This document shows, piece after piece, positions 28,748 to 37,562 of a stretch of DNA of 64,000 bases. A program made the position numbers and the translations under genes. Below the pieces are notes generated by a model. The model saw only the letters and a program-made list of their open reading frames with translations. It did not search any database and was not told where the DNA came from. Numbering within the stretch: the first letter of the stretch is position 1; each line of letters starts with the position of its first letter. Source of the DNA: Shewanella seohaensis (lineage in GTDB: Bacteria > Pseudomonadota > Gammaproteobacteria > Enterobacterales > Shewanellaceae); contig NZ_CP104900.1 of assembly GCF_025449215.1 (NCBI RefSeq), forward strand, positions 3,968,001 to 4,032,000, given 5' to 3'.

Positions 28748-29455
28748 TCACTCGGGAGCTTGCTCCAGAGCGAGTGATTGTGGTGTGAACAGCAGCGCCG
28801 CCGTCCAACTTAATAAACTCCCAAGCCCAATCCACTCCAGCAATGCTGGCCACCACAAATCGGGCCTAGGCAGTTGCAACACCATTTCTTGATAGAAGGG
28901 TCTGTCCCCCTCGGTTAAACCCAGCTCTAATAAGGGCGCGTAGAGAAAGGTCATCATGCTCAGCAACACCACCAGCGCCAACAATAGCGTTAAGGGTTGC
29001 CGCCTCTGTGAATTAAGCCCAGCCCACAGCAGATAACAGATTGCACTCGAACTACCGAAATAGAAAAACCATTTCAGGGCAAGGATATGCAGATGATACA
29101 CATTGACCGGAAACAAACCGACGCAGGCCAAGGCTAAAAACGTCAGCGCCAGCGCGCAGTAGAAGGGATAGCCCCAAAAACCACTTACGGTTTGCAAGGA
29201 TGAAAGGCAATAAAACACAATGCTTAAACTGCCAAAAAATAACCCACCATTAAGCACCACCGCTAAGGATGAATGCCCATAGGTGCCCAATTCACTCAAG
29301 GTATGATTCAAAAAGTTGAAGGCTCGAGTCTCGGTATGATCGAAGCCTAACACCGCCACCGCTATCCCAAGCAATAATCCAAAAATACCAATAAAACCAA
29401 ACTTAGTGGCGAGCGCAAAACCTCTTGTCGCGACATTCATTTTTGTAACAGTCAT
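28748..29455 (-). CDS. DUF998-like integral membrane protein
   Basis: A 235-residue protein with about six hydrophobic helices (FGFIGIFGLLLGIAVAVLGF; VVLNGGLFFGSLSIVFYCL; ALALTFLALACVGLFP; LTLLLALVVLLSMMTFLYAP). The NHTLSELGTYGHS...LNGGLF block resembles DUF998 membrane proteins. No enzymatic motif. Converges on ubiV with 29 bases between, and stands alone. Function unknown. Confidence 0.65.
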   Translation of the reverse strand: MTVTKMNVATRGFALATKFGFIGIFGLLLGIAVAVLGFDHTETRAFNFLNHTLSELGTYGHSSLAVVLNGGLFFGSLSIVFYCLSSLQTVSGFWGYPFYCALALTFLALACVGLFPVNVYHLHILALKWFFYFGSSSAICYLLWAGLNSQRRQPLTLLLALVVLLSMMTFLYAPLLELGLTEGDRPFYQEMVLQLPRPDLWWPALLEWIGLGSLLSWTAALLFTPQSLALEQAPE

Positions 29456-30159
29456 GGATAATTTAGCTAAACAAAAGTAGTACTAACTTACATGGAATTG
29501 AAAATAATTAAAGCGGCGTCCATCCTCTTTAGGAGAAATATTTTATTTCACCACTATTTACGCTTATTTAGTCACTCGCGCGCAGTTCCCGCCCTTAGTC
29601 AATATTCAATTTAAAATATGCAAATACCGAGTCAAAACCGCATAAAAATGCACAACCCATTCAGCAAGGCCGAGCTTATTGTCAGCGATAACCTCGCCAT
29701 TACAATTTGGGTTAACTATTTAACATTGTATGGTGAGCGACTGAAGCCCTAATCGCATTAACGGATAAAAAAACCGCAAAAGCGGAATATTCGAAGAATC
29801 TAAGGGAAAAATTTGTACAAAATCACCCTCGACCGCTAACAACATCAAGAATAAAACAACTCGATAAACACGCTGCAACACACAGATTTAATTGCATGAT
29901 TTAGTTAATCAAATACCTTATCAGCACGCAATATTCGCCAAGATAAGCATGCAGAAATGGCCCAAATAACTATGCTATTTTGCTGCTTATCTCAAACAAA
30001 TTTCCGAATCGTTTTACATAGCGCCGCTAAGCGAGTAATCTTCCCCCTTCTCGATTTTGAGTTGAATGAAAATGCACCTAACATCCGCCTAACATGCGGC
30101 TTTGAGGGGCAATTTGTTCAAGTTTATTTGTGCGACTCGTACTTTTAAGGTGTACACCA
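29456..30159. other. 704-base AT-rich intergenic region, with a terminator-like hairpin
   Basis: No convincing gene. AT-rich and lacking the codon character of its neighbours. A possible minus-strand terminator, CCGC-TTTT-GCGG followed by seven T, lies at 29767-29784 although no minus-strand gene ends there. The segment before 30160 presumably holds the promoter of the YjiH-type gene. Confidence 0.5.
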
Positions 30160-31518
30160 TTGGCTACTGAACATAAAAACCGCAACATTAAGACGATACT
30201 CACCTTTATCGTCCCTTCGCTGATCGGTCTGCTGCTGTTTATGACCCCTATCAGCTACAACGATGCGATTACTATTCCTATCGCAATCATCTCTAAAGCA
30301 TTGCAAAGCGTGTTAAGCGATGTATTAACCTTAATCGTGACTGTGATTGTTGTCGCCATGGCCTTGTCTTCGTTGCTGACTAAGTTACTCAAACCTAAGT
30401 TTGTGCTGAACAATCACTTCCTCAATGGGTTACTCAACATCAGCCCGCTCTGGCTTGCGACGCGCGTCGTCGGCGCCATCTTTATCGTGCTAACCTATTT
30501 AGGCATTGGCCCCGAAGCCATTAACTCTTCAAGCACTGGCGCCTTAGTACTGAACGACCTGTTACCTGTACTCTTCTCGGTGTTTATCTTCGCCGGTATG
30601 TTACTGCCGCTGCTGTTAAACTTCGGTCTATTAGAGCTATTTGGCACCCTGCTGACCAAAGTCATGCGCCCCGTGTTTAACCTACCAGGTCGCAGCGCCA
30701 TCGACTGTATGGCCTCTTGGTTAGGTGATGGTAGCGTTGGTATTTTGCTGACTAGCAAGCAATACGAAGCGCGTTTTTACACCCAAAGGGAAGCCGCGGT
30801 TATCGGTACCACCTTCTCGGCGGTGTCAATTACCTTCAGCTTAGTGGTGATCTCTCAGGTGAAGTTGGAGCAAATGTTTGTGCCCTTCTACCTGACCGTA
30901 TGTTTAGCGGGTTTTGCGGCGGCCGTGATTGTGCCTAAGCTGCCACCACTGTCGTGGAAAAAAGATAACTATATCGACGATACGCCACGTCAACCCGACG
31001 ATGAGATGATCCCCGCAGGACACGGCGCACTCTCATGGGGCTTTGATAAAGCACTCGAAAAAGCCGCTAGTGCTGGTGGTGTCAAAGCCGTTCTAAATGA
31101 AGGGATTAAAAACGTTATCGATATGGTATTTGGCATTATCCCAGTGGTAATGGCCATTGGTACCACGGCGCTGATCATCGCCGAGCATACGCCTATCTTC
31201 AATTACTTAGGTATGCCATTCATTCCGTTATTGGAACTGCTGCATATCCCAGAAGCGACCGAAGCCTCTAAAACAATCGTTGTCGGCTTTGCCGATATGT
31301 TTATCCCGTCGATTTTAGCCAGCTCTATCGAATCGGATATGACCCGCTTTGTGATTGCCGCCTTATCGGTAACGCAGCTGATTTACATGAGTGAAGTGGG
31401 CGCACTGCTGATTGGCAGTAAGATCCCAGTGAATTTTGTTGAGCTTTTTGTCGTGTTCGTACTGCGTACCTTAGTCACTCTGCCAGTCATTGCAGGCGTG
31501 GCTCACCTGCTGTTCTAA
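30160..31518 (+). CDS. YjiH family membrane protein (nucleoside-recognition/Gate domain)
   Basis: A 452-residue polytopic membrane protein with about ten hydrophobic segments and a Gate-like core (GRSAIDCMASWLGDGSVGILLTSKQY in parts; VVGFADMFIPSILASSI). It resembles the YjiH branch of the nucleoside-recognition family, thought to be transporters of unknown substrate. The start is TTG at 30160, with TAAGGTG at 30146-30152 as ribosome-binding site; the frame extends to 30130 without a better site. Single gene with its own terminator. Confidence 0.78.
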   Translation: MATEHKNRNIKTILTFIVPSLIGLLLFMTPISYNDAITIPIAIISKALQSVLSDVLTLIVTVIVVAMALSSLLTKLLKPKFVLNNHFLNGLLNISPLWLATRVVGAIFIVLTYLGIGPEAINSSSTGALVLNDLLPVLFSVFIFAGMLLPLLLNFGLLELFGTLLTKVMRPVFNLPGRSAIDCMASWLGDGSVGILLTSKQYEARFYTQREAAVIGTTFSAVSITFSLVVISQVKLEQMFVPFYLTVCLAGFAAAVIVPKLPPLSWKKDNYIDDTPRQPDDEMIPAGHGALSWGFDKALEKAASAGGVKAVLNEGIKNVIDMVFGIIPVVMAIGTTALIIAEHTPIFNYLGMPFIPLLELLHIPEATEASKTIVVGFADMFIPSILASSIESDMTRFVIAALSVTQLIYMSEVGALLIGSKIPVNFVELFVVFVLRTLVTLPVIAGVAHLLF

Positions 31519-31540
31519 GCGCAACATCACCTTAAATATC

Positions 31541-31573
31541 AAGGGGAGTCAGATTAACTGACTCCCCTTTTTA
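31541..31573 (+). terminator. Terminator of the YjiH-type gene
   Basis: AAGGGGAGTCAG (31541-31552) and CTGACTCCCCTT (31558-31569) form a 12-bp perfect stem with loop ATTAA and trailing T-run. Confidence 0.9.
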
Positions 31574-31653
31574 TACTGTACAAACTCCACTCGTAACCAC
31601 ACTACTCAGTTTAAGAATAAAAGCAAAATAGCCATATGATCTGCTCAACGAAT

Positions 31654-31763
31654 TTATTGCCATTGTTTCCCCAGTGACACGCCGTGAATATATCCCTATA
31701 GGCTCGACGGCGACATCCATGTCGCCAACGGTCACTGGTGCCCCAATGCCAATTTTAACTACC
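31654..31763 (+). repeat. 110-bp structured repeat, copy A
   Basis: Aligns without gaps to the reverse complement of 34265-34374 (about 80% identity by hand count). Predicted elements: an outer stem CAGTGAC (31672-31678) with GTCACTG (31731-31737); hairpin 1 TATA-TCCC-TATA (31689-31700); hairpin 2 GGCGACAT-CC-ATGTCGCC (31709-31726). All three are kept in copy B by compensatory changes. It lies just inside the left edge of the accessory island. An ORF could be drawn through it, but the conserved property is the pairing. Confidence 0.82.
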
Positions 31764-31856
31764 CATTTACTGTATGTACGCAAAAAGCAAAGGGACAAAA
31801 ATCGGTTAGGTTATTAACTCTAACTTATGAGTTTCGGATTACAATTTCTATGGAGA

Positions 31857-31979
31857 TAACGCCCTGTTAAGGTGTGAGCAACGCAATACCAATGCTCCCG
31901 CATACCACCTTAACCGCTAAAACCAACGCATAGTAAAAATGCCACGCGTTGCGAATCACTCTTAAACAGTTTGTTAGGC
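31857..31979 (-). repeat. attC recombination site, Vibrio (VCR-like) type
   Basis: Read on the minus strand it begins GCCTAAC (31979-31973), continues AAACTGTTTAAGAGTGATT, CGCAACGCGTGGCATTTTT and ACTATGCGTTGG, and ends CACACCTTAACAGGGCGTT near 31858. The ends pair with each other (CTGTTTAAGAGTGA against TCACACCTTAACAG), as an attC must, and the length of about 123 bases is typical of Vibrio cassettes. It lies directly downstream of the GIY-YIG ORF in the same orientation. Confidence 0.85.
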
Positions 31980-32527
31980 ATTTAATACCACGTGAGCTAT
32001 GCCTTGTTAAACATTGGCCTTAATTTATAAATTAACTCATGCTCTAAAAACATTAATTCGCGCAAATCATTTTCCAGCCAAATCGCGATTTTAATGTCAA
32101 AGCTTGGAATTAGCTTACCCAAATGGTATTCACCGATATATCCGAGGTCTATTTCATATTCTCCGTCTTGAAAAAGGACATCTTCAGAATACTTATCGAT
32201 ATGATTACCGCTGGTTTTCCAATGACGATATAAACGTTTATTCAGTTGCTTAGTTTTACCAACGTATAATGGTGCAAAATCTACAACATCACCGTCAAGT
32301 CGGTAGCTATCAAAAAAGAAATAACAACCTATATTTGATCGCAATTTTTCACCAGAAAACGGATAAGAAAAAATTTCCAGAAACCTATCCATATGATCTA
32401 ATGAGCTTGCTCTGATAAAACAATCTGGAAGTTTTACTAACTTTGACAGAAAGTAATCTTTTTCATCTTCAAAAAACTCTTCTTGATAACAAACCGAATT
32501 TTCCATACATCTCCAATATATGCCTAA
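31858..32527 (-). mobile_element. Lone integron gene cassette (GIY-YIG ORF plus attC)
   Basis: The cassette runs from the recombination point in G/TTAGGC (minus strand, 32528-32522) through the ORF to the attC end. It has the standard form: boundary heptamer, 15-20 bases, one ORF, attC. No integrase gene or second attC is present, so it is an orphan cassette. The sequence beyond the attC (TTATCTCC) is not the TTRRRY expected in an array, suggesting insertion at a secondary site. Confidence 0.8.
31997..32506 (-). CDS. GIY-YIG-like nuclease-fold protein carried by an integron cassette
   Basis: A 169-residue protein. The GIY-YIG core appears as GCYFFFDSYRL ... APLYVGKTKQLNKRLYRHWKTSG, where the YVGKT strand and the Arg/His helix match the family, and the C-terminal LEHELIYKLRPMFN supplies the conserved Glu and final Asn region. 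The first GIY is degenerate (GCY), so catalysis is uncertain. The N-terminal 60 residues match nothing I recognise. Start ATG at 32506 with GGAG just upstream. Its AT-rich composition contrasts with the host genes. It could be a defence or DNA-processing protein, a common cassette cargo; that is a guess. Confidence 0.68.
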   Translation of the reverse strand: MENSVCYQEEFFEDEKDYFLSKLVKLPDCFIRASSLDHMDRFLEIFSYPFSGEKLRSNIGCYFFFDSYRLDGDVVDFAPLYVGKTKQLNKRLYRHWKTSGNHIDKYSEDVLFQDGEYEIDLGYIGEYHLGKLIPSFDIKIAIWLENDLRELMFLEHELIYKLRPMFNKA

Positions 32528-32559
32528 CATCTATGGACACCCCATTTTTTGCAAGAAAA

Positions 32560-32760
32560 ATCAACCGATAACAAATGTGGTTTTGCAGCCATCTATTCGG
32601 ATTCCTTGTAAGAGACTCGCTCTTGATCCCCGATGAACTTCGCTGACTTGGCTCTAATCATTTTATCGTTTTCTAAGAAACGATGTTAGGCACAGAGTTT
32701 CCAAGTCACGGTCTAACCTGTCTTGTCATCACTTGCTTTCACTTAGCAAAACTGGATGTA
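32560..32760 (-). ncRNA. Predicted bridge RNA (seekRNA) in the 3' end of the IS1111 element
   Basis: The minus-strand transcript can fold as GACUUGG (32707-32701) with CCAAGUC (32651-32645), then CUCU with AGAG, then an internal loop, closed by hairpin AUCGUUU-CUUAGA-AAACGAU (32684-32665). The 5' side of the loop contains UGCCUAACAUC (32692-32682), complementary to 11 bases of the transposase-orientation strand at the right flank (GATGTTAGGCA). The 3' side contains AAAAUGAU (32664-32657), 7/8 identical to the reconstructed left target ATAATGAT. This matches the two-guide target loop known for IS110-family bridge RNAs. RNA boundaries are approximate, and the donor loop was not resolved. Confidence 0.62.
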
Positions 32761-32771
32761 CTTTTATTTAC

Positions 32772-33794
32772 TTAATAGGTTCGTCCTACGCTAAAACTTT
32801 CTTCTTTGGCTAATATGGCCCAAGAGATACGAACCAGTTTATTTGCTAATGCCACTATCACTTTGTTTTTATGCATTCTCTTGAGCAACGAGGTTACCCA
32901 TTCAAAGAACGGTTTTCCTTCTTTTAAATGCCTAATCACCGCTCTAGCTCCATGGATAAACATGCGTCTTAAGTAGGTATCTCCTCGCTTACTGATACCT
33001 AGCAGTAGTGACTTACCTCCGCTAGAGTGCTGGCTTGGTACTAACCCCATCCAAGCGGATAACTGACGCCCTGATGAAAACGCTTTTGCATCACCAATAC
33101 TGGCAATTAATGCGGATGATGTTAAGCGACCAACACCTGGGATCTGTCTTACTTTCTGACACTCATCACTGACTTCACTCGTGAGATCTATCTGCTTATC
33201 CAAATATTCTGCATACTGTTCGAGCTCCCTCAAACGTGTTTGCATTAAACTAATGTGCTCAACTAGCAGCTTTGGCAACTTATGCTCGACCAAGCTAAAA
33301 CCTTCTCTAAACCATTTTCTTAGCTGAAATCTTCCTGCAGGAACACTAACACCAAATTCTTGAAGGCTTGCCCTGATTCTATTGATTAATGCGGTACGGT
33401 CTCTGATTACGCCTTCTCTTTCTCGATGAAGCAGCAATAAAGCTTGTTGCTCTTCACTTTTAACAGAAACAAATCGCATCGTGGGGCGGCGAACCGCTTC
33501 GCAAATCGCTTCAGCATCAGCCATATCGTTCTTATTTGTTTTTACATAAGGCTTAACATACTGAGGTGGCATGAGTTTGACTTCATGACCCAGCTTTTTT
33601 ATTTCTCGTGCCCAATAATGAGAACTAGAACATGCTTCCATTCCAATCAGACAAGGAGCAATATTGCTCAAAAATTTAATGACTTGATTTCTTTTTAGTG
33701 ATCTATTAATCAGTTTTTTCCCTGTCTTATCAAACGCACATAATTGAAAAACAGACTTTACTAGATCAATTCCGATTGTATAAATATCACTCAT
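32772..33794 (-). CDS. IS1111-type transposase (DEDD recombinase)
   Basis: A 340-residue intact transposase. The N-terminal RuvC-like DEDD domain has YTIGIDLVKSVFQ (first Asp), LIGMEACSSSHYWA (Glu) and TNKNDMADAEAI (paired Asp). The C-terminal Tnp_20 domain has IPGVGRLTSSALIASIGD and GLVPSQHSSGGKSLLLGISKRGDTYLRRM (in parts) with the conserved serine region, then HGARAVI. No frameshift or stop, so the element may be active. It acts with a structured RNA from the element's non-coding end. The downstream position of that end is the IS1111 arrangement. Confidence 0.93.
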   Translation of the reverse strand: MSDIYTIGIDLVKSVFQLCAFDKTGKKLINRSLKRNQVIKFLSNIAPCLIGMEACSSSHYWAREIKKLGHEVKLMPPQYVKPYVKTNKNDMADAEAICEAVRRPTMRFVSVKSEEQQALLLLHREREGVIRDRTALINRIRASLQEFGVSVPAGRFQLRKWFREGFSLVEHKLPKLLVEHISLMQTRLRELEQYAEYLDKQIDLTSEVSDECQKVRQIPGVGRLTSSALIASIGDAKAFSSGRQLSAWMGLVPSQHSSGGKSLLLGISKRGDTYLRRMFIHGARAVIRHLKEGKPFFEWVTSLLKRMHKNKVIVALANKLVRISWAILAKEESFSVGRTY

Positions 33795-33843
33795 GACGGT
33801 CTCCTTTTAAACTGACTTCCTCAGTATAGAAGGGGTGTCCATT

Positions 33844-34264
33844 TCATTATTTTATTAGTGCGCATGCGCGCTTATCACGTTAGACCAGTGAAAACGAGCA
33901 CGGTTAACTATCTGTATGCAAAGAACTTATCAGCTTTCTGCCAAATACACCATCTGGAAAAACGCGCATGCGCGTTTTCCAGACCTATTAACTAAAATTC
34001 AGTTACTATATTCACCTGATTTTATAGGGTTTTATTTATTGCTGATGGAATTAGTGCGCACTGATTTTGTCTAAAAATCATACCAAAACACCTAAATTTA
34101 AATATGACTGTATAGCCATACATTATTAGCCGTTTAGCGGTAGGGCCAAACATAGGTAACTAGATGAAAATTTGTATGGCAACAAGAGTAGGTATTTTCG
34201 ATTGAGATAACGAGCTGAAACACGAAAAGGGATAAAAAGCTTTTAGCCAAATGAACAGTTCAAT
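33844..34264. other. AT-rich non-coding segment with GCGCATGCGC palindromes
   Basis: No gene recognised. GCGCATGCGC occurs at 33860-33869 and again within a hairpin at 33954-33982, whose core AAAACGCGCATGCGCGTTTT (33959-33978) is flanked by CTGG and CCAG. ATTAGTGCGCA is directly repeated at 33854-33864 and 34050-34060. These may mark the remains of a small inserted element. The left end joins the insertion sequence. Confidence 0.5.
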
Positions 34265-34374
34265 GGTCGTTAAGATTGCCATTGTTGCAACTGTGACCGT
34301 TGGCGGCATGGATGCCGCCGTCGAGCCCTCAAGGATGAGTTCATGGCGTGTCACAGGGGAAACAATGACAATTC
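34265..34374 (-). repeat. 110-bp structured repeat, copy B
   Basis: Reverse-oriented partner of 31654-31763. On the plus strand the stems are CTGTGAC (34291-34297) with GTCACAG (34350-34356), GGCGGCAT (34302-34309) with ATGCCGCC (34312-34319), and CTCA (34328-34331) with TGAG (34336-34339). Compared with copy A, the differences inside stems come in complementary pairs. It marks the right edge of the accessory island, 213 bases before the metallophosphoesterase gene. The 34375-34587 remainder holds nothing recognised. Confidence 0.82.
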
Positions 34375-34587
34375 ATCCAGCACACCAAGCGATAATACAA
34401 TCTAGCTTTAGGCAAAAGTAAGTTAAATCCTCCAGCCAGTTCTCATTGCATCCAGATCCAAATCTTGATGGTTAAGTTCAAGTTAATCCAACTTACTGTC
34501 ATCTGCATGTCACTTAAGCTTCATCATTCAGTCAAAGCCCGTCACTAATCTCTAAGGCAGTCAACAGCCGCATAGGGTGAATATGAG

Positions 34588-35670
34588 ATGACTGGAGCTA
34601 ATTACAGGGGACTTGATCGCACGCTTATCGACGCACTCAAGACTCCCCGCAACTCTTCCCGTAACACTCCCTCCAACTCTTCCGACAATGCTCCATCCAG
34701 TGTTTACGACACTTCCTTCTCAACCCCACATATTGCCAACGCCAGCAACGCCGCAAATAGCCAAACCATCACAGTCAACGCCCTCTGGCTATCGGATATC
34801 CATCTCGGTTGTAAGGATTGCAAAGCCGACTATCTGTTAAGCCTATTAAATACCGTGCGTTGTCAGCACTTGTATCTGGTCGGCGATATTGTGGATTTAT
34901 GGGCGCTCAAACGCCGCCTGCACTGGCCCGAGAGTCACAATAAGGTATTGCAAAAACTGATTGAACTGGCACAAAACGGCACTCAGGTGATATATCTGCC
35001 GGGTAATCACGATGAGTTAATCAAGCCCTATGCCGAACTGACGCTACTGAACATCAAGATTGCTCGCCAACATATTCATCAGGGGATTGGCGGCCACAAA
35101 CTATTAATGCTGCATGGCGATCAGTTCGATGCCGATGTTTGCGTTGGCCGCTTCTACGCCATCTTGGGAGATCATCTCTACGACTTGTTGCTGTTCCTCA
35201 ACCGCAATCTCCATCGCCTGCGTGAGCGTTTAGGCTACCCGTATTGGTCACTCGCCAGCTATATCAAATCCCGCGTGGGCAAGGCGCAGACGGCTATCGC
35301 CCGTTTTCGCCAAGCCGTAGTGAATTATGCCCAGCACTATGATGTGGACGGCGTGATCTGCGGCCATATCCACCAGCCAGAGCTATCGGTTCACGCTCGA
35401 GATAACCAATACAGCACGCCGGATAAGCGCCAGATAATCTATGCCAATGATGGCGACTGGGTCGAAAACTGCAGCCTGATCACCGAAACCTTAAACGGGG
35501 AATTACAGCTCTGCCGCTGGAACGAGCAAAGCGTAAACCTCGATATTCTGAGCAGTATTGTGCTGGCGCAAACGCCACCCACAGCGCCTGTTAACGCCCC
35601 AAAACCTATTCCACAAACGGCCACACACAGCCCCAAACAAGCAGAAATCCAACCAAGGGATGTTGCCTAA
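34588..35670 (+). CDS. LpxH-like calcineurin-type metallophosphoesterase
   Basis: A 360-residue protein. After a Ser/Asn/Thr-rich, probably disordered N-terminus (to about residue 62), the dimetal phosphoesterase motifs come in order: LWLSDIHLGC, LVGDIVDLWAL, LPGNHDE, LMLHGDQFD and CGHIHQPE. The spacing resembles UDP-2,3-diacylglucosamine hydrolase relatives rather than LpxH itself, which is shorter. The tail after residue 325 is Pro/Thr-rich. The stop is two bases before the acyltransferase ATG, so both are one operon, suggesting a joint role in envelope lipid modification. AGGGTG upstream is a plausible ribosome-binding site. Confidence 0.83.
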   Translation: MTGANYRGLDRTLIDALKTPRNSSRNTPSNSSDNAPSSVYDTSFSTPHIANASNAANSQTITVNALWLSDIHLGCKDCKADYLLSLLNTVRCQHLYLVGDIVDLWALKRRLHWPESHNKVLQKLIELAQNGTQVIYLPGNHDELIKPYAELTLLNIKIARQHIHQGIGGHKLLMLHGDQFDADVCVGRFYAILGDHLYDLLLFLNRNLHRLRERLGYPYWSLASYIKSRVGKAQTAIARFRQAVVNYAQHYDVDGVICGHIHQPELSVHARDNQYSTPDKRQIIYANDGDWVENCSLITETLNGELQLCRWNEQSVNLDILSSIVLAQTPPTAPVNAPKPIPQTATHSPKQAEIQPRDVA

Positions 35671-35672
35671 TC

Positions 35673-37562
35673 ATGAACCCATTAACTCCTCATACCCCAA
35701 ACGCTGATTCATTAAGCCCTAACACATTAAGCGCCAACGCATTAACGCAGGACGCAGCCATGCCACTGCCCGCCTTAAAAGCCAGTTCGATGATCTTTAC
35801 TGTCGATAATGTGGTGGAGCAAAACCTGCCCGCCCTCAAGGACAAACCTTGGTTAGCCAAGCCGACTAAGGCCATGCTGCGCTACCTGTTGAATGAAAAA
35901 CAATGTAACGAGATAGCCAATCAATTTGCCTATCTGCAAGGGGTCGATTTTGTCGAGCAAGTGCTCGCCAGCTTCGATTTTAGCTTTACCGTGCCCGCCA
36001 ACGAGGTCGAAAATATTCCCTGTGAGGGCCGCGTGGTGATCTTCGCCAATCATCCGATTGGCTCCCTCGATGCCCTAGCTCTGATTAAACTCGTCAGCGA
36101 AATTCGCCCCGATATCAAGGTTGTGGCGAACGAGCTCCTGATGGCGCTCGAACCTTTGCATTCTATCCTACTGCCAGTGCGCAATATGACGGGCGGCACG
36201 CCGAAACAGCACCTCGAAAAAATCCACCAGCATCTGCGCAATGAAGGCGCGGTACTGATTTTCCCGTCGGGAGAAGTCTCTCGCCTGCGTCCGAGCGGCG
36301 TGCGCGATACCCAGTGGCACTCGGGCTTTTTGAAGATGGCGATTTCCTGTAATGCACCGCTGCTGCCAATCTTTTTGGATGCTAAAAACTCGGCCACCTT
36401 CTACGGCGCCTCGATGATTTACAAACCCTTAGCCACATTGCTATTGGTCAAGGAGATGTTTAAACAGGCCAAACGCAATATGCCCATTCGTATCGGCGAG
36501 CTTATCCCGAACGAAGCCGTACGCTCGATGGACTTTCCGCTAAAGACCAAGATAAAACTGCTTAAAAATCATCTGTATCGTATCGGTAAAGATAAAGACC
36601 CACTGTTTATCACCCAAAGCGCCATCGCCCACCCTGAGTCGCGCCGAGAGCTACAGGCCGCGCTGCAACAATGTGAACTCCTCGGCGAAACCCAAGATAA
36701 CAAGCTGATTTATTTGTATCAGCATCAGGACAGTAACCCCATCATGCGCGAAATTGGTCGCCTACGGGAAATCGCCTTTCGCGCCGTTGGCGAAGGCACG
36801 GGCAAACGCCGCGATATCGATAAATATGATTCCTACTACCAACATCTGGTGTTGTGGGATAAAGAACAGTTTGAAATTGTCGGCGCCTATCGTTTCGCCA
36901 GCGGCGAGCAAGTGCTGAATCGCTACGGCGACAACGCCCTCTACAGCCAATCCCTGTTCCAATATGCCGACGGTTTTATGCCCTTCGTCAAACAAGGCTT
37001 AGAACTTGGCCGCAGCTTTGTGCAGCCCAAATATTGGGGCAAACGCAGTCTCGACTACCTCTGGTTTGGTATTGGCGCCTTCCTCGCAAAACATCCCGAA
37101 TACCGCTACCTGTTTGGCCCTGTTTCTATCAGTAATCAACTGCCTGGCAGCGCGCGGGAGATGTTAGTGCATTTCTACTCCAAGGAGTTTGCGCCAGCAG
37201 AGCAGCTGGCGGTGTCCATGTCGCCCTTTGGCCTGTCCAAGCAGCGCAAGTTGCAGTTAGATGAACTCTATTCGGGCGAGGATTACCAAAGCCACTTTAA
37301 GCAACTCAAACAAATGCTGGCGAGTATGGGCGCCGCGGTGCCAACCCTGTACAAGCAGTACGGCGAGCTGTGTAAGCAGGATGGGGTGAAGTTTCTCGCC
37401 TTCGGGATCGATGCCGATTTTGGCGACTGTGTCGATGGCTTAGTCTTGGTCGATACCCATAAACTGAAAGGGAAAAAGTACCAGCGTTATATCGGCGCCC
37501 ATTTACCCGAAGACTTACGCAACCCCTTGATGGCAGAGGACGAAACCGACGAACAGGATTAG
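35673..37562 (+). CDS. Two-domain acyltransferase (PlsC-like plus GNAT/OlsB-like), OlsF-type
   Basis: A 629-residue fusion. After a 40-residue Asn/Ser/Thr-rich leader, the N-terminal lysophospholipid acyltransferase domain has FANHPIGSLDAL (near residue 128), LLPVRNMTGG and LIFPSGEVSRL. The C-terminal half (from about residue 345) is an OlsB/hemolysin-type N-acyltransferase: LREIAFRAVGEGTGKRRDIDKYD, VGAYRFASGE, LELGRSFVQPKYWGKRSLDYLW. The order matches OlsF, which makes ornithine lipids from ornithine in one protein. By analogy it makes ornithine or a related aminolipid; substrate unproven. Pairs with the metallophosphoesterase upstream. Confidence 0.8.
   Translation: MNPLTPHTPNADSLSPNTLSANALTQDAAMPLPALKASSMIFTVDNVVEQNLPALKDKPWLAKPTKAMLRYLLNEKQCNEIANQFAYLQGVDFVEQVLASFDFSFTVPANEVENIPCEGRVVIFANHPIGSLDALALIKLVSEIRPDIKVVANELLMALEPLHSILLPVRNMTGGTPKQHLEKIHQHLRNEGAVLIFPSGEVSRLRPSGVRDTQWHSGFLKMAISCNAPLLPIFLDAKNSATFYGASMIYKPLATLLLVKEMFKQAKRNMPIRIGELIPNEAVRSMDFPLKTKIKLLKNHLYRIGKDKDPLFITQSAIAHPESRRELQAALQQCELLGETQDNKLIYLYQHQDSNPIMREIGRLREIAFRAVGEGTGKRRDIDKYDSYYQHLVLWDKEQFEIVGAYRFASGEQVLNRYGDNALYSQSLFQYADGFMPFVKQGLELGRSFVQPKYWGKRSLDYLWFGIGAFLAKHPEYRYLFGPVSISNQLPGSAREMLVHFYSKEFAPAEQLAVSMSPFGLSKQRKLQLDELYSGEDYQSHFKQLKQMLASMGAAVPTLYKQYGELCKQDGVKFLAFGIDADFGDCVDGLVLVDTHKLKGKKYQRYIGAHLPEDLRNPLMAEDETDEQD

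Follow-up and report, generated by a model that had tools for sequence, protein, structure and literature searches.

An insertion sequence of the IS1111 family lies on the minus strand of the window (the whole 64,000-nt stretch of Shewanella seohaensis DNA that was analysed) and carries a predicted seekRNA/bridge RNA. The element is positioned between an attI-like site and the core site of a gene cassette. The features, in window coordinates, are as follows.

32530..33849, minus strand: whole IS1111-type element, 1320 bp, delimited by an empty orthologous site and six empty sites of the same genome
33850..33909, minus strand: left target half, attI-like site AGTTAACC...GCGCATGCGCACTAATAAAA, the end of a dispersed repeat running to about 34376
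33843..33849, minus strand: left extension TAATGAA, 7 bp, the element's own according to the repeat search and the empty site
33832..33842, minus strand: left subterminal inverted repeat ATGGACACCCC, 11 bp, perfect
32772..33794, minus strand: transposase, 340 aa, DEDD_Tnp_IS110 and Transposase_20 domains, GLVPSQHSSG motif
32641..32712, minus strand: predicted guide RNA core, 72 nt modelled, with an outer 8-bp stem, an inner stem, a two-guide internal loop, and an apical hairpin
32683..32692, minus strand: T guide TGCCTAACAT, complementary to target positions -1..+9 (cassette start)
32659..32666, minus strand: B guide ATAAAATG, 8/8 to target positions -6..+2
32533..32543, minus strand: right subterminal inverted repeat GGGGTGTCCAT (transposase strand), 11 bp
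32530..32532, minus strand: right extension AGA, 3 bp, from the empty site
32521..32529, minus strand: right target half TGTTAGGCA, the core site that opens the gene cassette
31997..32506, minus strand: cassette gene with a weak GIY-YIG match (20.8 bits; Pfam cut-off 22.6)
31857..31979, minus strand: attC-like end of that cassette, GCCTAACAA...GGGCGTTA
31831..31853, minus strand: right border CCATAGAAATTGTAATCCGAAAC, common to dispersed arrays

The start of the cassette gene at 32506 was picked by eye from a GGAG that resembles a ribosome-binding site, and the attC-like end of the cassette presumably resembles the Vibrio VCR. One base (T) is uncertain at the junction of the element ends.

The original prediction of an IS1111 element is borne out by the protein, an IS110/IS1111-type transposase at 32772-33794 on the minus strand. 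Both Pfam domains are above cut-off, and the match to NF033542 (NCBIfam 'IS110 family RNA-guided transposase') scores 349.5 bits at a cut-off of 140. The element has the features that characterise IS1111: a transposase within the range of 330-350 aa with DEDD/Transposase_20 domains and the GL-P----S(T)G motif, subterminal inverted repeats (sTIRs) within the range of 11-13 bp with extensions of 7 bp on the left and 3 bp on the right, and non-coding DNA mostly downstream of the transposase gene (~240 bp, versus 55 bp upstream). Published IS1111 elements have extensions of 7 and 3 bp, with 6 and 3 bp in occasional cases (PMC11187229, excerpts). Residues 122-254 of the transposase also give a weak match to a TIGR-Tas RNA-guided endonuclease model, at 26.9 bits far under the cut-off of 100.

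The host genome contains three near-identical copies of the element (L001, which is the window copy, L002, and L003; at most three differences in 1310 bases) and four further copies of another lineage, at 43-45%. The window sequence at 34302-34319, GGCGGCATGGATGCCGCC, resembles an intact target of the type occupied by L004-L007, the other IS1111 lineage of this genome (compare L094). Among named relatives of the element, the closest belong to Marinomonas (87% and 76%). An unnamed IS110-family transposase on Klebsiella plasmids (e.g. NZ_MN319465.1) is 54% identical to that of the element. The plasmid collection gave no close match to the element, and Rfam at gathering thresholds found nothing in the window.

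The ends of the element are defined by an empty site. In genome G075, the site orthologous to copy L003 is without the element: 600 bp of the right side are 99.7% identical, the nearest 270 bp of the left side are 98.9% identical, and both sides abut exactly. Since the flanks of L003 are contiguous in G075, there is no target duplication, and the element, carried over to the window copy, measures 1320 bp (32530-33849), not 32532-33845 as originally delimited. Read in the same sense as the originally predicted target, the empty G075 site is TGCCTAACATTTTATT. A pattern scan of the host genome (≤3 mismatches) gave 11 matches, namely three filled sites, six empty sites, and two others, one of which is a more distant version near intI and the other chance-like. 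The six empty attI-like sites read AATAAAATGTT on the transposase strand (...AATAAAA^TGTT...), and the target of the window copy is AATAAAA^TGTTAGGCA (longer form on the transposase strand, GCGCACTAATAAAA^TGTTAGGCATATAT). Position -8, a base that is not read by the guide, is T in the three filled sites and G in the six empty sites of the host genome; sites with T at -8 are empty in other genomes.

The patterns used to delimit elements required an AATG-like left end; therefore, only an unprompted search for inverted repeats provides independent evidence for that end. Among 22 loci, the best match was of the ATGGAC type in 14, and TAATGRA precedes the repeat in all 14. TAATGRA adjoins the second-best repeat in L026, and L011 has TAATGGG. 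L020 and L032 have a GTGGACGCCC repeat without TAATGRA, and four of the 22 loci gave no such repeat.

Downstream of the transposase gene, the fold of the non-coding DNA, read on the transposase strand, agrees with the original prediction and has the stems GACUUGG/CCAAGUC, CUCU/AGAG, and AUCGUUU/AAACGAU. In an alignment of nine guide RNAs, from nine of the 13 members of the transposase clade, the drawn stems are paired in 98.1% of cells, compared with 25-41% in slid-partner controls. Both-side changes occur in 10 of 18 pairs, compared with a mean of 5.2 in shuffled alignments (reached in 0 of 500), and the number of pair types, 13, is not above that of the shuffles (12.1; 196 of 500). On this comparison, the outer stem, the inner stem, and the apical hairpin hold up.

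The internal loop is predicted to present two guides in the published order, the T guide (10 nt) first and the B guide (8 nt) 3' of it. The six specific bases of the B guide, ATAAAA, equal target positions -6..-1, on the attI side. They are the informative part of the guide, because TG belongs to the conserved TGAT anchor. The original prediction had an 11/11 match of one loop side to the right flank. The match is exact (32682-32692 against 32521-32531), but one of its bases is the element's own end, leaving 10 nt against the empty target. The second guide first proposed, AAAATGAT with a 7/8 match to ATAATGAT, has to be replaced, as TAATGA is the left end of the element and the true match is ATAAAATG at 32659-32666. 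The idea of two guides that match the local site is supported once one guide and the target are corrected.

When the non-coding region was dinucleotide-shuffled 20,000 times, the 10-nt match arose once and the 8-nt match 208 times, and the two never arose together. The guides of the window copy were located by matching, and the anchor-based test came afterwards. For that test, 53 input loci yielded 37 delimited elements (35 in one pattern run, plus L007 and L009), and 30 of them entered the permutations; the seven left out have short flanks (L010, L026) or are without the anchor (L077, L079, L082, L085, L090). The B guide matches its own flank at a mean of 4.65 of 6 positions, compared with 2.44 for the flanks of other elements (17 unique pairs). 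The best 9-nt match of the T guide is 6.82 of 9 with its own flank, compared with 5.66 with others (28 unique pairs). Each advantage was reached in 0 of 20,000 permutations, which treat related elements as if independent, with no correction for kinship.

Between attI lineages the sequence varies (CTAATAAAA or CTATACAAA), and the B guides vary with it: ATAAAA matches at 6/6, and TCCAAA matches at 5/6 at L069-L071 and L073. B matches are weak at L011 and L014 (2/6 each) and at L072 (3/6). The T guide is partly matched at many sites, for example 6/9 at copy L002 of the host genome and 4/9 at L084, and TGTTA is its constant part within the clade. Covariation of the guides with their own flanks supports a two-guide RNA that still matches the local site.

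We propose, with a probability of about 0.85, that the element is an IS1111 insertion sequence whose downstream seekRNA/bridge RNA is programmed to the integron attI. The exact ends, the empty and filled sites, the guide–target covariation, the conserved stems, and the place beside intI, as shown by comparison, point to this reading.

An alternative that we consider unlikely is that this is an ordinary IS1111-attC element and the attI-like repeat merely a common cassette end. The IS1111-attC group (ISKpn4, ISPst6, ISPa21), reportedly described by Tetu & Holmes (2008) and Post & Hall (2009), is likewise directed to integrons, at attC ends as opposed to the attI end of the array at which this clade sits. 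Two observations accord with the attC reading: the right target half, TGTTAGGC, is the core site of a cassette, and a diverged form of the left half is found beyond the host's intI, on its far side, before another ORF (L043; L046 position 11293). However, 17 of the 30 best-matching intI loci have the target motif 160-424 nt upstream of the intI frame and directed away from it (≤5 mismatches; the best-scoring 30 loci rather than all). These 17 loci have the arrangement of attI, that is, a site 5' of intI with cassettes leading away and a GTT crossover. Two of these 17 sites are occupied. The occupant in G121 is L070, a 61% relative, next to an open intI frame of 322 codons; the one in G102 lies at a contig end, shares that left end, and likewise adjoins a frame of 322 codons.

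The motif was not seen at the attI place in the other 13 of the 30 loci, which comprise the host's own locus (where an ISL3-family gene lies), three loci near contig ends, eight with a more distant intI, and L098, which is unclear. At two intI loci, L095 and L098, the motif matches elsewhere than at the attI place. The host intI is above the cut-off of TIGR02249 (integron integrase) and has matches at E ≤1e-40 in 83 of 129 genomes of the genus. In the stretch L046 8287-10562, the frame of this intI is missing its beginning and adjoins a transposase of the ISL3 family; G075 has the same shortened frame.

The insertion sites of related elements also bear on the attC reading. Of the 13 insertion sites of the transposase clade, which has a support of 100/100 with L072 included, 12 have the left half of attI, if in part as a variant. 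L071 has a variant left half, only 11 bases are known at L073, and the flank of L072 is not attI-like; the tree, built from 12 distinct proteins, carries the attI label on all 13 members including L072. A separate IS1111 lineage of the genus (L077, L079, L082, L085), on its own branch, sits at TAAC^GCCC, which by eye looks like an attC-like end. The RNA region of that lineage contains TTTAACGAATGAG, which resembles its own left junction. The original prediction was right that the target is a cassette boundary, namely the junction of attI and the first cassette. Its link to the attC-targeting subgroup, which inserts at attC ends, is not upheld, as the boundary is on the attI side, with an attI-like left half and a motif found next to intI, and the other lineage sits at ends that by eye look attC-like. 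Scanning the arrays of the host genome at ≤4 mismatches gave a single left half, located at the head, for eight of nine stretches; the ninth, L046, has the head and the L043 site. We rejected attC as the target on the head position of the left half and the motif in the attI place beside intI. The window's own site and the other dispersed sites, which have no adjacent intI, are best called attI-like, by similarity.

These attI-like sites recur away from intI, at the end of a 150-500 bp repeat. Nine are dispersed in the host genome, far from its one intI match (L035-L042, L045-L053; window 31831-34376), and the right border is present at 12 places of the genome. Attachment sites resembling attC lie behind seven of the nine heads by a loose pattern that asks for ...GCGTTA, was run without a shuffle control, and may include chance matches. 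A strict attC scan, with two matches in 214,520 shuffled bases, found sites in only three of the nine stretches and missed that of the window. Across the genus, the attI-half pattern (≤3 mismatches) has four or more matches in 27 of 129 genomes, compared with 0-2 per genome for the reversed control, and 13 of these 27 do not belong to the 83 in which intI is matched at E ≤1e-40.

The same chromosomal place in G134 (sides 97% and 95% identical; L170 against window 29001-36500) has no insertion sequence. It has the attI-like site followed by a different gene with its own attC-like end and border. Comparison of the two genomes thus indicates cassette exchange away from intI. In the window, inverted repeats of 118 nt with 81% complementarity (31656-31773 and 34255-34372) flank the whole unit, and parts of them recur elsewhere in the genome; the unit is possibly a MITE-like carrier. 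In the array near intI, three genes between attI and the right border (L046 2976-6645) resemble, as judged by eye, a type I restriction-modification set.

A further alternative, which we regard as very improbable, is that the guide matches are a by-product of shared descent, copies having moved together with their flanks by recombination between attI repeats while the choice of site is made by the protein alone. In the host's copies, the left flanks are homologous repeats, and guides and targets are alike within clades, as shared descent would have it. However, those left flanks carry substitutions of their own, and the right flanks of the three copies differ, two of them having in common only the first nine bases. 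In addition, G075 has the attI-cassette junction of L003 without the element. Finally, guides track targets despite unrelated flanks in two clear single cases, L012 (TTAATTCCA and TAGAAATG) and L087 (CAGGGATG). The original target TGCCTAACATCATTAT with a shared TC core, to which the flanks do join as they were then cut, can be dismissed, since it was not seen in any of the seven empty sites (six own, one orthologous), which read otherwise and already refute it, and TAATGRA adjoins the repeat in all 14 elements with an ATGGAC-type best repeat.

The systems most like this element are RNA-guided ones. The IS1111 elements with a seekRNA (ISEc11, ISPa11, ISKpn4, ISPst6) described in the excerpts of PMC11187229 have the same transposase type, sTIRs with 7/3-bp extensions, the same downstream non-coding region, a top-strand match 5' of the bottom-strand match, and no target duplication. 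A junction promoter is reported for them and only predicted here: the joined element ends would read TTGCAA-17-GATAAT, with 9 of 12 consensus bases (no control was run). Unlike the elements described in those excerpts, this one has the integron attI as its target, and what its guides recognise is composed of attI together with the cassette core. The IS110 element IS621, with its bridge RNA, likewise has an RNA-guided DEDD recombinase; according to the excerpts of PMC11208160, the RNA of that group is upstream and the repeats are only short, as against the downstream RNA and 11-bp sTIRs found here.

The seekRNA guide principle was published in 2024 for IS1111 elements, attC-directed ones among them, and the same excerpts of PMC11187229 report, for a relative, that an altered loop gives an altered target. 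The claim of new evidence in the original prediction is therefore overstated as regards the guide principle, already published for IS1111 including attC-targeting elements. IS110-family elements in attC, including ISPa21, appear in the excerpts of PMC11616780, and those of PMC9229058 report no insertion sequence in attC of Shewanella integrons. No description of attI targeting by IS110/IS1111 elements was recognised among the matches listed from openly licensed literature, in the parts of the texts available. The class of RNA-guided elements is known, and attI seems to be a new target for it.

We suggest the following mechanism. The RNA would be made and, as in the IS1111 elements that have been tested (PMC11187229, excerpts), the transposase would probably bind it; a circle with the junction promoter would be the intermediate. 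The 3' (B) guide would read ATAAAA, the last attI bases before the cassette core, and the 5' (T) guide would read TGTTAGGCA, the core site where the cassette begins. The transposase-RNA complex would then place the 1320-bp element a single base ahead of the G in G^TT, without target duplication. At that position attI loses its core, and the first cassette is moved 1.3 kb further from any upstream promoter. Insertion would thereby part attI from its GTT core, and cassette entry and exit there would be stopped until the element leaves.

A broader proposal, to which we give somewhat less than even odds, is that the whole IS1111 clade is dedicated to attI. One guide would follow the attI of the host lineage, the other would recognise the nearly universal core of cassettes, and the element would accordingly land between the platform and the first cassette. 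In this genus it would exploit the dispersed attI-like sites, and its insertion would act as a reversible, RNA-addressed lock on cassette exchange.

If the attI reading is true, attI, the entry point of the integron, joins the natural targets of RNA-guided IS1111 elements, and the clade offers a natural series of matched guide-target pairs. It would also open to testing the possibility that cassette capture is frozen or redirected by a mobile element.
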